DNA from: Lachnospiraceae bacterium
Lineage (GTDB): Bacteria > Bacillota > Clostridia > Lachnospirales > Lachnospiraceae
Direction: 5' to 3'
Assembly: GCA_017620255.1 (NCBI GenBank)
Contig: JAFZQU010000010.1
Location: 1-64,000, forward strand
DNA length: 64,000 bases
This document shows positions 6,062 through 10,743 of this stretch, piece by piece. Position numbers and translations under genes: made by a program. Below the pieces are notes generated by a model. It was not told the DNA's origin. It worked only from the letters and a program-made list of their open reading frames with translations, and did not search any database. Each line of letters opens with the position of its first letter. Position 1 is the first letter of the stretch.

Positions 6062-7525
6062 ATGAAGAAACAGATGGTAACAGCCATGGCACTGCTGCTC
6101 TGCGTTACGTTGACGGGATGCGGCATCATTCCCGGTTTTCTGCGGAAACACAAAGACGACGAACCGGATAAACCGCAGACGACGGAACAGCCGGCACAGG
6201 ATACGGACGAAGAGGATATAGAGGAACCGGAGGCACCTGCCGCAACGGATGAAGCAGCACAGGCGGGTGACCGGATCGGGCATAAAGAACTGATCGGCAA
6301 CTGGCAGCTCGTCTGCGAAACGGATTATTCCGCAGTACCCGGTATTCCGCTTGAACGGATGGATTCTTATTTCTATATGGCCGAAGAGATAGGGCATATG
6401 GAACTGTATATTTATGAAGATAATGGGGCTCTGTTTGCAGATTATGATCTTGGCAAGTATGAGATGGTCGGCACCGGTTATCATCTCCCGGTTGAGATCG
6501 TAAACGAGGCGCTTTATGAAGGATCCGCCAATCAGGAATGGGTGGCAAAGATCGTCAATCCGCGCACGAAGGAAGATGTTTGCCGTCTGACTCTGGAAGA
6601 GGACAATAAGCTGGTCGAGTTTGAAAGTTATGAATACGGCGAGGGAGAAGACGCATGGCACAGCGTCACGATCAGCACATTCCTGCGGGAAGGCTCTAAG
6701 GAAATGGAGCATAAGGATGATCTGCGCTACAACGAGACGATCACGGTCAGCAACGTGATGGAACTGCTGCAGGCGATCGGCGACGGGAAAAAGATCATTC
6801 TCAAAGAAGGCGTATATGACATCAGCCGTACAGACAAGAGTCTGAGAAATTCTAAAGTGGTCATAAACAACGGCTGGGACAGTGAGAGCGACACCGTGGT
6901 AAGCGTAAGCATCAAAGACGTTGAAAACCTCTGCCTGAAGGCGGAAGAAGGTGCCAAGGTGGAGATCTGCGTAACGGATCCGTATGTGCCGGTCATGACA
7001 TTTAACGGTTGCAGAAATGTCATTCTTGACGGGATCACGGCCGGACATCATGTGGAACCGGGTACCTGTGGCGGCAGTGTCATACAGCTGCAGGACGGCT
7101 ACAATTATCATATCAGCAACTGCCATCTGTACGGGTGCGGGACCTACGGGATCGAAGCCATGAACACTTCGGATATCCATGTGGATCAGACCGAGATCTA
7201 TGAATGCACCTACGGGATCGTGGACCTGGCAAATGTTTACAACGCTTCCTTTACGAACTGTACGATGCATGACAACAAAGACATGAGCATGATCAGTCTT
7301 TCCCAGTGCAGTGATGTTGTGTTCACGGATTGTGCCTTCCGCGATAACTTTGTGGATTCACAGAATTACTTCTCGGTCAGATTTGTACAGGCAAATGAAA
7401 GCTACGGAACCGCGCTGCATCATTGCACGTTTACGGGCAATACATACGGGCGCTTCCATGAAGGGGATGTCGAGATCGACAACTGTTCCTTCAAGGACAC
7501 GATCACCGGAGACAAAGCCGGCTGA
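6062..7525 (+). CDS. Lipoprotein with right-handed parallel beta-helix
   Basis: A 487-residue lipoprotein: signal peptide with lipobox LTGC (Cys20), an acidic Pro-rich linker (about residues 25-75), a first beta domain, and from about 225 a right-handed beta-helix with repeated 'NGCRNVILDGI', 'SNCHLYGCG', 'TNCTMHDN' rungs as in NosD/pectate-lyase-like folds. Such helices often bind or cleave polysaccharide. The start at 6062 follows GAAAGGAGATAAGAAA; an in-frame ATG at 6044 lies before this site and is rejected. It pairs with the membrane hydrolase upstream. The catalytic residues, if any, cannot be assigned. Confidence 0.8.
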   Translation: MKKQMVTAMALLLCVTLTGCGIIPGFLRKHKDDEPDKPQTTEQPAQDTDEEDIEEPEAPAATDEAAQAGDRIGHKELIGNWQLVCETDYSAVPGIPLERMDSYFYMAEEIGHMELYIYEDNGALFADYDLGKYEMVGTGYHLPVEIVNEALYEGSANQEWVAKIVNPRTKEDVCRLTLEEDNKLVEFESYEYGEGEDAWHSVTISTFLREGSKEMEHKDDLRYNETITVSNVMELLQAIGDGKKIILKEGVYDISRTDKSLRNSKVVINNGWDSESDTVVSVSIKDVENLCLKAEEGAKVEICVTDPYVPVMTFNGCRNVILDGITAGHHVEPGTCGGSVIQLQDGYNYHISNCHLYGCGTYGIEAMNTSDIHVDQTEIYECTYGIVDLANVYNASFTNCTMHDNKDMSMISLSQCSDVVFTDCAFRDNFVDSQNYFSVRFVQANESYGTALHHCTFTGNTYGRFHEGDVEIDNCSFKDTITGDKAG

Positions 7526-7567
7526 ACGTATAAACAATTAAATACATATTTCTTCTCTCCGCGACCG

Positions 7568-7644
7568 GACAAATGTCAAGATACAACTTGCCATAACTTG
7601 ACAAAAGCAGACAAAATATCACAACATATAACTTGACAAATGTC
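7568..7644. repeat. Direct repeats upstream of the glmM fusion gene
   Basis: GACAAATGTC occurs at 7568-7577 and 7635-7644 (each a GACA/TGTC dyad), and ATAACTTGACAAA occurs at 7593-7605 and 7628-7640. AACTTG is present three times. The right-hand copies contain the -35 box of the promoter at 7633. The arrangement suggests multiple binding sites for a regulator, or decayed duplicated promoters. Confidence 0.6.
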
Positions 7645-7660
7645 ATGATACAGGTAAAAT
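7633..7660 (+). promoter_or_regulatory. Promoter of the amino-sugar cluster
   Basis: TTGACA at 7633-7638, 16-bp spacer, TAAAAT at 7655-7660. The -10 box lies in the left arm of the inverted repeat 7654-7697 and the -35 box lies in one of the direct repeats. Confidence 0.7.
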
Positions 7661-7697
7661 CATAAGTGTAGGCCGTGGCGTAGGCTTATGATTTTAC
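7654..7697. repeat. 13-bp perfect inverted repeat over the glmM promoter
   Basis: GTAAAATCATAAG (7654-7666) and CTTATGATTTTAC (7685-7697), 18-bp loop. The left arm contains the -10 box and the right arm ends 4 bp before the ribosome site. Because transcription should start near 7667, the left arm would not be in the main mRNA, which favours a DNA-level operator over an RNA hairpin. Confidence 0.7.
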
Positions 7698-7713
7698 GGA
7701 AAAGGAGATCATC

Positions 7714-9276
7714 ATGAAATACATGGACGTCCATGAGGCGGCGCAGAAATGGGATATGAACGAGCGGCGCATCACCATGCTGTGCAGGGACGGCAAGATC
7801 AGGGATGCCAAAAAAGAAGGCAAGCTCTGGCTGATCCCGCAGAATGCCGCAAGGCCTTTTGACGGCAGGACCAAAGAAGCAAGAGAGATGGCATCCGAAT
7901 CTGCAAAAAAGGAGAGAAGAAAAATGGGTAAATATTTCGGAACTGACGGATTCCGCGGAAAAGCGGGAGAGGTACTGACGGCGGAGCACGCCTTCAAGAT
8001 CGGGAGATTCCTTGGCTGGTATTACGGTAAAGAACGGCCGGCCAAGATCGTGATCGGGAAGGATACCCGCCGTTCTTCTTATATGTATGAAAATGCACTG
8101 TCCGCAGGCATCACATCCTCAGGCGGCGATTCTTATCTGCTGCATGTTACAACAACCCCGTGTGTGAGCTATATCACGAGAACGGAAGGCTTTGACTGCG
8201 GTATCATGATCTCGGCCAGCCATAATCCGTTTTTTGATAACGGCATCAAACTGATGAACAACGAAGGCGAGAAGATGGAAGACGAGGTGCAGGACCTTGT
8301 GGAGCAGTACATCGACGGCGAGATCGATGATGTGAAATGGGCTACGGATGATAAGGTGGGCCGCACGATCGATTTTTACTCGGGAAGAAACCGCTACATC
8401 GGATACCTGACCAGTATCGCACCGGTATCCTTTGAAAACTGCAAGGTGGCGCTTGACTGTGCGAACGGCAGCTCCTGGATGATCGGACGGGCCGTGTTTG
8501 ATGCGCTCGGTGCCAAGAACTATGTGATGAACAATACGCCGGACGGCGTCAACATCAACCTGAATGCAGGCTCCACGCATATCGAAGGTCTGCAGAAGTA
8601 TGTGCGTGAGAACAAGGTCGATGTCGGTTTTGCTTTTGACGGTGATGCGGACCGCTGCCTGGCCGTGGACGAATACGGCGATGTGGTCAACGGCGACATG
8701 ATCATGTACATCTGTGCAAAGCATCTGAAAGCAAAGGGAATGCTGCCGACCAATACCGTTGTAACGACCATCATGTCCAATTTCGGTCTGTACAAGGCAT
8801 TTGACAACATCGGTATCAGCTATGAAAAGACCAAGGTCGGTGACCGTTACGTTTATGAAAACATGAAGGAGAACAATCATATGCTCGGCGGCGAGCAGTC
8901 CGGCCATGTGATCTTCCGGAAATATGCGCACACCGGAGACGGTCTTGTGACGGCGATCATGCTGATGACCGTTCTCGTGGAAACACAGCTGCCGTTGTCC
9001 GTGCTTGCTTCCGAAGTGAAGATGTATCCGCAGGTACTCAAAAACGTGGAAGTGGATGACAAGGAGAAGACGCTTGCCGATCCCGCGGTCAAAAAGGCTG
9101 TGGACGATACGACCGCATTACTTGGAAACGACGGACGTGTGCTTTTGCGTGCATCCGGCACGGAACCCGTGCTGCGCGTGATGTCGGAGGCGATAACCTA
9201 TAAGGATTGTGAGAAGTGTGTGGATATGATCATCGACGCGATGAAGACATCTGGACACCTTCAGAAGATCCGCTAG
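7714..9276 (+). CDS. glmM: Phosphoglucosamine mutase with N-terminal HTH domain (fusion)
   Basis: Converts glucosamine-6-phosphate to glucosamine-1-phosphate for UDP-GlcNAc and wall synthesis. Residues 71-520 are a complete GlmM (450 aa): phosphoserine in ISASHNP (Ser169 of the fusion, 99 in GlmM numbering), metal loop DGDADR, GEQSGH sugar loop and RASGTEP phosphate loop. Residues 1-70 are an excisionase/MerR-like helix-turn-helix (MDVHEAAQKW...RRITMLCRDGKI...LIP) plus a basic linker, in the same frame with no stop. There are two strong ribosome sites: AAAGGAG before 7714 and AAGGAGAG (7909-7916) before an ATG at 7924, exactly the normal GlmM start. Either a fused enzyme, or two products (520 and 450 aa), may be made. 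LbH protein and nagB follow. Confidence 0.9.
   Translation: MKYMDVHEAAQKWDMNERRITMLCRDGKIRDAKKEGKLWLIPQNAARPFDGRTKEAREMASESAKKERRKMGKYFGTDGFRGKAGEVLTAEHAFKIGRFLGWYYGKERPAKIVIGKDTRRSSYMYENALSAGITSSGGDSYLLHVTTTPCVSYITRTEGFDCGIMISASHNPFFDNGIKLMNNEGEKMEDEVQDLVEQYIDGEIDDVKWATDDKVGRTIDFYSGRNRYIGYLTSIAPVSFENCKVALDCANGSSWMIGRAVFDALGAKNYVMNNTPDGVNINLNAGSTHIEGLQKYVRENKVDVGFAFDGDADRCLAVDEYGDVVNGDMIMYICAKHLKAKGMLPTNTVVTTIMSNFGLYKAFDNIGISYEKTKVGDRYVYENMKENNHMLGGEQSGHVIFRKYAHTGDGLVTAIMLMTVLVETQLPLSVLASEVKMYPQVLKNVEVDDKEKTLADPAVKKAVDDTTALLGNDGRVLLRASGTEPVLRVMSEAITYKDCEKCVDMIIDAMKTSGHLQKIR
7911..7926 (+). promoter_or_regulatory. Internal ribosome binding site at the canonical GlmM start
   Basis: GGAGAG (7911-7916), 7-nt spacing, ATG at 7924-7926, in frame with the upstream start at 7714 (exactly 70 codons). 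The encoded linker here is KKERRK. This site decides whether a normal-length GlmM is made alongside the fusion. Confidence 0.65.
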
Positions 9277-9318: not shown

Positions 9319-9990
9319 ATGAACTGCAAGATAACGGATCTGTATGACCTGTCGCATACAAGGGCGGCGGAATACCTGAGCGGATTTACCTATCCGTGGG
9401 AAGCACTGGAAGGGATCAAGGAACTGATCCTGAAGATCGGGGCAACGCTCCCGGCCGATGAGTTTGATCATCCGGAAGAGGATGTCTGGATCGCAAAGGA
9501 TGCGAAGCGCTATCCGAACAACTATATCGGCGGCCCCTGCATCATCGGGCATGAGACGGAAGTGCGCCCGGGCGCATTCATCAGAGGCTCGGCCCTTGTG
9601 GGAGATCACTGCGTGGTCGGAAATTCGACGGAATTAAAAAACGTGATATTGTTTGATAATGTTCAGGTCCCGCATTATAATTATGTAGGCGACTCCATTC
9701 TGGGTTACAAGGCACACATGGGTGCCGGATCGATCACCAGTAACGTAAAGGCTGACAAAAAGCATGTTGTGATCAAAAACGAGGGCGAACTGCTCGAGAC
9801 ACACCGTAAAAAAGTCGGCGCGATGCTGGGAGACGGCACGGACATCGGATGCAATACGGTCTTAAATCCGGGGACGGTCGTTGGCAGGAACAGCAATGTT
9901 TATCCGGTTTCCTGTGTCCGCGGCGTGATCCCGCCGAATTCGATCTATAAAGAAGCAAAGAAGATCGTGATCAAAGAGGATCGTGACTAA
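9319..9990 (+). CDS. Left-handed beta-helix protein, GlmU C-terminal-like
   Basis: A 223-residue protein with hexapeptide repeats from about residue 65 (ARRANGED as 'IIGHETEVRPGAFIRGSALVGDHCVVGNSTELKN', split here in prose: GHETEV, GAFIRG, ALVGDH, VVGNST), typical of left-handed beta-helix acyl- or nucleotidyltransferases. The sequence 'HYNYVGDSILGYKAHMGAGS' region matches the acetyltransferase half of GlmU; the N-terminal uridylyltransferase domain is absent. Located between glmM and nagB, it probably acts on an amino-sugar phosphate, perhaps as N-acetyltransferase. Clear AAAAGGAGAG ribosome site. Exact reaction not established. Confidence 0.8.
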   Translation: MNCKITDLYDLSHTRAAEYLSGFTYPWEALEGIKELILKIGATLPADEFDHPEEDVWIAKDAKRYPNNYIGGPCIIGHETEVRPGAFIRGSALVGDHCVVGNSTELKNVILFDNVQVPHYNYVGDSILGYKAHMGAGSITSNVKADKKHVVIKNEGELLETHRKKVGAMLGDGTDIGCNTVLNPGTVVGRNSNVYPVSCVRGVIPPNSIYKEAKKIVIKEDRD

Positions 9991-10011: not shown

Positions 10012-10743
10012 ATGAAAGTCATCATTGCAGAAAACTATGAAGACGGCGCAAAAAAAGCCGCTGACGTGATCGAAAAACTGGTACGGGAAAAACCCGGCTG
10101 CACGCTGGGACTGGCAACCGGATCGAGCCCGGTTGGGATGTACAAAGAACTTGCAAGAAGATGCAGGGAAGAGGGCCTTGATTTTTCCAAGGTTCATTCC
10201 GTCAATCTGGACGAATATGTCGGACTCGAGCCCACGCATCCGCAGAGCTACAGATTTTTCATGGATGACAATCTGTTTAACCACATCAATATCGACAAGG
10301 CCAATACCTATGTTGCCAAGGGCACAGGGGATGTGGAAGCAAACATAAAGGAGTTCAACGAGATCCTCGACAAAACGGATATCGACCTGCAGGTTTTGGG
10401 TGTCGGACCGGACGGACATCTCGGATTCAATGAACCCGGCAAATTCCTGTATGAGAAAGCACATAAGGAAACACTGGAAGACAGTACGATCGACGCCAAT
10501 ACACGTTTCTTCGCAAACCGTGATGAGGTACCCAGATATGCCGTGACCATGGGAATGGGCAGTATCATGAAAGCAAAGACACTGCTGATGATCATCAACG
10601 GCAACAAGCAGGAAGCTGCAAAGAAACTGCTTATGGAAGATACGATCGACCCGCAGTGCCCGGCGACTTTCATGCGCCTGCACAGGGACGCGATCGTTGT
10701 GATCGAGAAAAAACTGGCTGACGAGATCGGCTACCGCGGCTGA
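10012..10743 (+). CDS. nagB: Glucosamine-6-phosphate deaminase
   Basis: Converts glucosamine-6-phosphate to fructose-6-phosphate and ammonia (reversible). The 243-residue length is normal; conserved features are ATGSSPVGMY (phosphate loop), NLDEYVGL (catalytic Asp) and GVGPDGHLGFNEPG (catalytic His/Glu region). It ends the three-gene amino-sugar group, so GlmM (towards wall synthesis) and NagB (towards glycolysis) compete for the same substrate within one transcript. Confidence 0.95.
   Translation: MKVIIAENYEDGAKKAADVIEKLVREKPGCTLGLATGSSPVGMYKELARRCREEGLDFSKVHSVNLDEYVGLEPTHPQSYRFFMDDNLFNHINIDKANTYVAKGTGDVEANIKEFNEILDKTDIDLQVLGVGPDGHLGFNEPGKFLYEKAHKETLEDSTIDANTRFFANRDEVPRYAVTMGMGSIMKAKTLLMIINGNKQEAAKKLLMEDTIDPQCPATFMRLHRDAIVVIEKKLADEIGYRG

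Follow-up and report, generated by a model that had tools for sequence, protein, structure and literature searches.

A winged-helix prefix on phosphoglucosamine mutase in Lachnospiraceae is accompanied by a conserved operator-like array at its own promoter

Among certain Lachnospiraceae of gut and rumen, in which a helix-turn-helix (HTH) head on phosphoglucosamine mutase (GlmM) is frequent, the promoter of the fused gene carries two to four copies of a TAWCTTGACAWW-like site upstream, an array seen in 36/36 fused loci, the last copy of which usually overlaps the -35 box. This conserved array, which an earlier sequence-only reading of the DNA did not foresee, is our main result; because it accompanies the fusion and is missing in unfused relatives, we conclude from genome comparison that the probable target of the HTH is the promoter of its own gene. 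We consider it probable, on the same kind of evidence, that HTH-GlmM is a bifunctional, self-regulating enzyme bound to the array at its own promoter. An intact enzyme and a DNA-binding domain are found in one chain by sequence and prediction, and conserved operator-like sites are tied to that domain (36/36 fused and 0/7 unfused loci). GlmM supplies a precursor for the bacterial cell wall and is essential in Staphylococcus aureus (PMC6368335) and, if the reading is right, one chain both makes a wall precursor and sets the output of its own gene. The roughly 56-residue prefix would then be a module that may confer self-control on whatever partner it joins, and close relatives lacking both the HTH and the sites form a natural control set.

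The window analysed here, a stretch of 64,000 nucleotides, comprises positions 1-64,000 (forward strand) of contig JAFZQU010000010.1 from assembly GCA_017620255.1 (Lachnospiraceae bacterium). Within it, the frame at 7714-9276 (plus strand) is open throughout and encodes a 520-aa HTH-linker-GlmM fusion (Table 1), for which the full-length predicted model has two domains with a low-confidence stretch between them (residues 53-86, pLDDT<50). The GlmM part passes the curated NCBIfam model TIGR01455 (score 527.8 bits, threshold 447.55), and its motifs SASHNP, DGDADR, GEQSGH and RASGTEP, which we take to be the catalytic serine, metal, sugar and phosphate loops, are all invariant in the 21 fusions compared, so that the catalytically intact GlmM proposed from the letters alone stands as far as its motifs go. 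By family model and motifs the fused protein is a member of the GlmM family, with mutase activity of the fused form predicted. In the window's genome it is the sole locus above the GlmM cut-off, two further phosphohexomutase-type genes scoring below it.

The same fusion is found in 22 of the 37 genomes of the genus (21 intact, and G027 cut at a contig edge), while 12 have GlmM without the HTH and three were set aside (G008 and G034, without a match above the GlmM cut-off, and G032, truncated). It is the only GlmM above the curated cut-off in 21 of the 22 fused genomes, the exception, G036, being a contaminated bin (8%) in which three GlmM copies occur. A pattern scan of named genomes (84,980 species), which detects only loci holding either of two HTH peptide patterns and whose loci partly overlap with the 37 genus genomes, gave 37 loci, 35 of them HTH-GlmM, all titled Lachnospiraceae, and the remaining two (L097, L099) bearing a near HTH on a galactokinase-like protein; ten of the 35 HTH-GlmM titles name the rumen, and AC3007 (L066) is a non-MAG record among them. 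These 35 and the window make up the 36 fused loci used below, a set that includes near-copies (L079/L084, L088/L089) and two loci, L064 and L069, that stem from one mixed bin; the frame is uninterrupted in 36/36. The sequence-only reading, which had described the fusion and called for a search for homologs, named a frameshift or assembly error between 7714 and 7924 as one thing that would undo it. The fusion recurs in frame in each relative carrying it and, given its recurrence in 22/37 genus genomes and 35/37 named loci, such an error is very unlikely.

The array was delineated by scanning 260 bp upstream of the 36 fused loci with the query ATCTTGACA, allowing up to one mismatch. At least two sites were present in 35/36 loci, and in the other, L066, the array lies about 245-290 bp upstream instead. 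The extended consensus of 120 sites is RTAWCTTGACAWWT. In the usual layout, site A on the minus strand is followed after about 20 bp by site B on the plus strand and, after about 23 bp, by site C, also on the plus strand; neighbouring sites are 19-25 bp apart in 67 of the 85 spacings of up to 50 bp, spacings of 44-45 bp are also seen, and B and C are separated by 34-35 bp in L065 and in the window. The direct repeats earlier pointed out in this promoter are conserved, as an operator-like array, in 36/36 fused loci. A TTGACA-like -35 box within the last site, with a plausible -10 box at 16-18 bp, is recognisable in 29/36 promoters.

Table 1. Features of the HTH-glmM locus in window coordinates
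Feature	Position	Strand	Basis
Operator-like site A, TATCTTGACATT	7572..7583	-	array scan
Operator-like site B, TAACTTGACAAA	7594..7605	+	array scan
Operator-like site C, TAACTTGACAAA, contains predicted -35 TTGACA (7633-7638)	7629..7640	+	array scan, promoter prediction
Weaker site, one mismatch against the 9-bp core	7641..7649	-	array scan
Dyad/hairpin, 5' arm covers -10; arms 7654-7666 and 7685-7697	7654..7697	+	dG -23.5, z -4.9
Predicted -10 TAAAAT, 16 bp from -35	7655..7660	+	promoter prediction
HTH domain, N-terminal, winged, lambda-Xis-like predicted fold, residues 1-56	7714..7881	+	sequence, model, dN/dS
Linker, sequence-variable, contains internal Shine-Dalgarno, residues about 57-70	7882..7923	+	pairwise identity, pLDDT
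Internal Shine-Dalgarno AAGGAG	7909..7914	+	SD-like site in 36/36 fusions, weaker in 2
Internal ATG, would give 450-aa form	7924-7926	+	ATG in 36/36 fusions
GlmM, phosphoglucosamine mutase, residues 71-520	7924..9276	+	TIGR01455 above cut-off
Acetyltransferase, left-handed beta-helix, GlmU C-terminal-like	9319..9990	+	family models, synteny
NagB-like glucosamine-6-phosphate deaminase	10012..10743	+	TIGR00502 235.7 bits, just below cut-off 236.9; synteny

Binding of the array would, we infer, repress the operon, the sign of the regulation being read solely from site C overlapping the -35 box. The opposite sign, with the HTH acting as an activator from sites A and B while C touches the -35 box, would suit the position of A and B, which precede the promoter and are spaced at close to helical intervals; the -35 and -10 boxes recognised in 29/36 promoters, however, imply that no activator is needed, and instability would be expected if an enzyme of this kind activated its own gene, which makes activation unlikely.

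That the HTH of the fusion is what binds the array is suggested by how closely the two travel together. Scored as two sites within 50 bp in the 320 bp upstream, the array is present in 34/34 fused loci, 0/7 unfused loci and 5/704 other pieces of the same loci in the set used for the GlmM tree, the seven unfused relatives without an array upstream of glmM including the four (L025-L028) that are nested among fused ones. At the level of genomes, the inverted A-B pattern lies at the fusion promoter in 16/22 fused genomes, a reversed-pattern control giving 0 matches in the 37 genomes, and the B-C pattern does so in 20/22, with 4 off-target matches across the genus against 5 for the reversed control; one or the other is found at the fusion promoter in 22/22 fused genomes and at glmM in 0/12 unfused genomes. 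An independent-pairs sign test of array against fusion has 2 supported pairs (p 0.5), too few for significance. A different regulator, for example a standalone relative of the HTH, might instead bind the array, the fused HTH tethering the nucleoid or doing nothing. Standalone HTH relatives do occur in several genus genomes, and the array includes the -35 box, so that part of its conservation is conservation of the promoter; yet the array tracks the fused HTH (34/34 against 0/7), and in G005, G013 and G025, which are unfused but do encode standalone HTHs, the A-B pattern is found nowhere. We regard this explanation as distinctly unlikely, and binding by the fused HTH itself as the better account of the array.

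No regulon beyond the fusion's own promoter is visible among exact sites in the window's genome or among A-B and B-C patterns across the genus. The window's genome holds eight exact 12-mers, three at the fusion promoter, three within genes and two on contig C43 that were taken as lone intergenic sites; contig C35, which carries glmS, holds no exact 12-mer site. Extra A-B matches occur singly in G004, G011 and G034; G032 has one where a contig ends, perhaps a cut fusion promoter. Four further genomes (G006, G008, G021 and G023) have extra matches that are perfect palindromes, mostly of the TGTCAAGTTTTCTATGAAAACTTGACA type with one-base variants, a palindrome present in one to four copies per genome that is perhaps the end of an insertion element.

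The GlmM tree (41 rows, built without the truncated L080 and L082) places unfused sequences at three points inside the fused clade, namely L025, L026 with L027, and L028. One gain of the HTH in the genus followed by three losses fits this nesting best and is the simplest history, with interspecies transfer as an alternative; the well-supported branches alone force only 2 changes. L028 has a core promoter (TTGACA-N17-TACTAAT) without sites A and B, which argues against a single deletion having removed the HTH and the array together. In L026 and L027 a TAGACA accompanies a TATAAT-like box, and in L025 glmM lies directly behind an upstream beta-helix gene.

By sequence, the 70-aa piece carrying the HTH falls below the Pfam cut-off of 27 for both HTH_59 (22.9 bits, E 8e-5) and HTH_17 (19.5 bits, E 1e-3), and an HTH profile found no match among PDB chains at E 1. 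The predicted structure (74 sequences, mean pLDDT 89.4) consists of two helices (residues 6-13 and 17-25) and two strands (33-35 and 38-42), the helix, helix and beta-hairpin wing of a winged helix. In Foldseek the model matches DNA-bound lambda Xis (2og0) with TM 0.65/0.76, rmsd 1.8, probability 0.98 and E 0.27; all E-values of that search were at least 0.001, with 2og0 at rank 10 by E-value and HlyU chains of poor TM in the top ranks. As modelled, the fold matches the Xis/AlpA-type winged HTH, and DNA binding is predicted.

Purifying selection maintains the HTH as a protein domain, as judged from its codons: the median dN/dS is 0.089 for the HTH versus 0.029 for the first 130 GlmM codons (usable dS in 135 and 145, respectively, of 250 sampled pairs). 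Mean pairwise identity across 34 genes is 78% for the HTH, 91% for the first 130 GlmM codons and 17% for the linker, the last taken over the 441/561 pairs of equal length and excluding the five codons preceding the internal start, for which it is 46%. A neutral read-through fusion, in which an HTH gene lost its stop, the internal start alone matters and the prefix is a relic, would account for the unconstrained linker (17% identity) and for the HTH-free relatives inside the fused clade that retain GlmM, but is very improbable given the HTH's dN/dS, the 36/36 uninterrupted frames and the retained array.

A second start at the normal position of GlmM, also part of the sequence-only reading, proved to be conserved: both the ATG and an SD-like site are present in 36/36 fusions, and the ribosome site, whose conservation the reading had proposed to check, is kept while the linker around it drifts. 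The duplex energy of this internal Shine-Dalgarno (SD) is -8.1 kcal/mol or lower in 34/36 fusions and -5.6 in the other 2, compared with a mean of -3.7 kcal/mol for 210 other internal Met codons (12 genes), 19% of which reach -6. Synonymous recoding at the site gives about -6.8 on average (36 genes), and 2/36 genes are at 0.05 or below in this test, which is weak for any one gene because K-K-E codons readily form SD-like sites. All 32/32 genes with K-E at this point use GAG for the E that falls within the SD, against a pooled GAG usage of 691/1147, and none of 11 other E columns reaches this purity (best 0.85); a lysine column of the HTH does reach it, with a single codon in 32/32 and no SD there. 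AGG comes next in 5/5 genes with AAA-GAG versus 1/27 with AAG-GAG, these genes being related and not independent, and GGA is retained where the E codon changed to G (2 genes) or D (2 genes). Since both the choice of GAG and the substitutions preserve the SD, selection for internal initiation is moderately supported, and a short HTH-free form of 450 aa is likely to be produced.

We propose that the 520-aa form, dimeric if like S. aureus GlmM, would bind the array by its HTHs and block RNA polymerase; S. aureus GlmM is a dimer (PMC6368335), and a dimer would present two HTHs to the array. The level of its first product would thereby limit expression of the glmM-acetyltransferase-nagB operon, and the internal ribosome site would yield the 450-aa HTH-free enzyme, making catalysis independent of DNA binding. 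Glucosamine-6-phosphate (GlcN-6-P) is common to GlmM and NagB. More speculatively, its occupancy of HTH-GlmM might alter DNA binding, in which case the ligand would control binding and the protein would be a trigger enzyme.

The acetyltransferase-like and nagB-like genes both lie downstream in 28 of the 35 named fused loci; L093 and L094 have nagB only, and in five the contig ends before nagB. Both downstream genes are also present in the unfused L025-L028, nagB being cut in L025. The product of 9319-9990 is a stand-alone GlmU-like acetyltransferase half without the nucleotidyltransferase domain, and its gene adjoins glmM in most genus loci showing it.

By analogy, the nearest known systems in their working are BirA and the methyltransferase M.SsoII. 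BirA proteins form groups with and without a DNA-binding domain, and the Bacillus subtilis ligase is unharmed by deletion of that domain (PMC4016012); group II BirA thus resembles HTH-GlmM in having domain-bearing and domain-free counterparts, as in the fused and unfused GlmM proteins. BirA is an unrelated enzyme that, in the account given there, acts at three genomic sites in B. subtilis, whereas for the fusion sites are seen only at its own operon. In M.SsoII the N-terminal 71 residues, attached by a flexible linker, recognise a regulatory site and compete at the protein's own gene with RNA polymerase, giving negative feedback (PMC3978073); M.SsoII so shares with the proposed HTH-GlmM a linker-borne N-terminal DNA-binding region acting on its own gene. 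It differs in being a DNA-modifying C5 methyltransferase, in an N-terminal region that the source describes as modelled on the phage 434 repressor rather than on an Xis-like protein, and in a site that is an inverted repeat, where the HTH-GlmM promoter has a spaced array (PMC3978073). BzdR, and a BzdR-shikimate kinase chimera, likewise join an HTH, a linker and a metabolic-enzyme domain (PMC3602430), and compared with BzdR the GlmM of the fusion retains its catalytic motifs. S. aureus GlmM, a dimer and essential, is the same enzyme as the GlmM part of the fusion without a DNA-binding domain, and its gene sits in a dacA-ybbR-glmM operon, whereas HTH-glmM precedes an acetyltransferase gene and nagB (PMC6368335). 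No report of an HTH-GlmM fusion was among the literature matches listed, which cover open-access papers only and are weak evidence of absence.

The sequence-only reading had linked self-regulation to direct repeats and a 13-bp dyad in the promoter. Comparison of genomes supports autoregulation, through the array tied to the HTH, and does not support the dyad as the regulatory site: the dyad is present (7654-7666 and 7685-7697) but is not the element that is conserved: counting folds with z of -4 or less, by our own reading, 13 of the 29 promoters in which a -10 was recognised show a similar hairpin around it. The dyad was rejected as an operator, the conserved element being the TAWCTTGACAWW-like repeats. 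The hairpin arms vary in sequence yet stay complementary and are often followed by a T-run, placing the promoter inside a terminator-like hairpin that would perhaps terminate read-through from upstream. An Rfam search of window positions 7400-8000 found no fitting family, the lone match being a fungal snoRNA (E 0.59) far below the gathering score.

A like HTH prefix, alone or on other bodies, is present in 110/295 genomes of a sample of the order (E 1e-8) and in 70/398 of a sample of the phylum (E 1e-10). A Pfam scan of ten prefix proteins identified two galactokinase-like bodies, the rest including Fic, D12 and C5 methyltransferases, AAA-ATPase/PDDEXK, LytTR, AraC and LuxR; the bodies of further prefix proteins were classed by eye. 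It is possible, though we doubt it, that HTH-GlmM senses flux where pathways branch at GlcN-6-P and is one case of a wider class of self-repressors, in which a dimer would repress the operon, turnover would release it, a second start would set the ratio of regulator-enzyme to plain enzyme, and Xis-like prefixes (on Fic, methyltransferases, galactokinase and ATPases) would have matching promoter arrays. The literature matches listed contain no description of such a class of Xis-like HTH-prefix self-repressors.

Promoter repeats were counted in a first sample of 71 prefix genes, 70 of them with enough upstream DNA, and found in 18/70 compared with 66/1157 control pieces (Fisher p 2e-7, genes counted as independent); in a hand-picked subset of 60/71, with near-copies and some others dropped, the counts were 15/60 and 57/996 control pieces. 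A second, separate sample gave 3/29 versus 26/520, with no significant enrichment (p 0.19). A looser count that includes inverted repeats has 22/60 at p 0.05 or below, some of which resemble ordinary terminator hairpins. The sequences suggest that promoter repeats accompany the HTH prefix in at least some lineages.

Among the other bodies, a near HTH sits on a galactokinase-like GHMP kinase at L097:4001-5407 and at L099:4001-5410, the two coming from a Clostridia MAG and a Bacilli MAG; no TAWCTTGACAWW-like array was seen upstream of these two fusions, and a search for relatives in the 398 phylum genomes gave 3 matches at E 1e-60, none fused. Upstream of five HTH-Fic-like genes (L139, L145, L150, L165 and L167, with the Fic body Pfam-supported only in L139) there are two to three direct TATTATTCCGATA-like repeats at 20-23 bp spacing, which share the architecture of the glmM array but differ in motif. 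The window's genome itself holds a second HTH-prefix gene (L159, from base 2 of contig C19), with a body that is Fic-like by eye.
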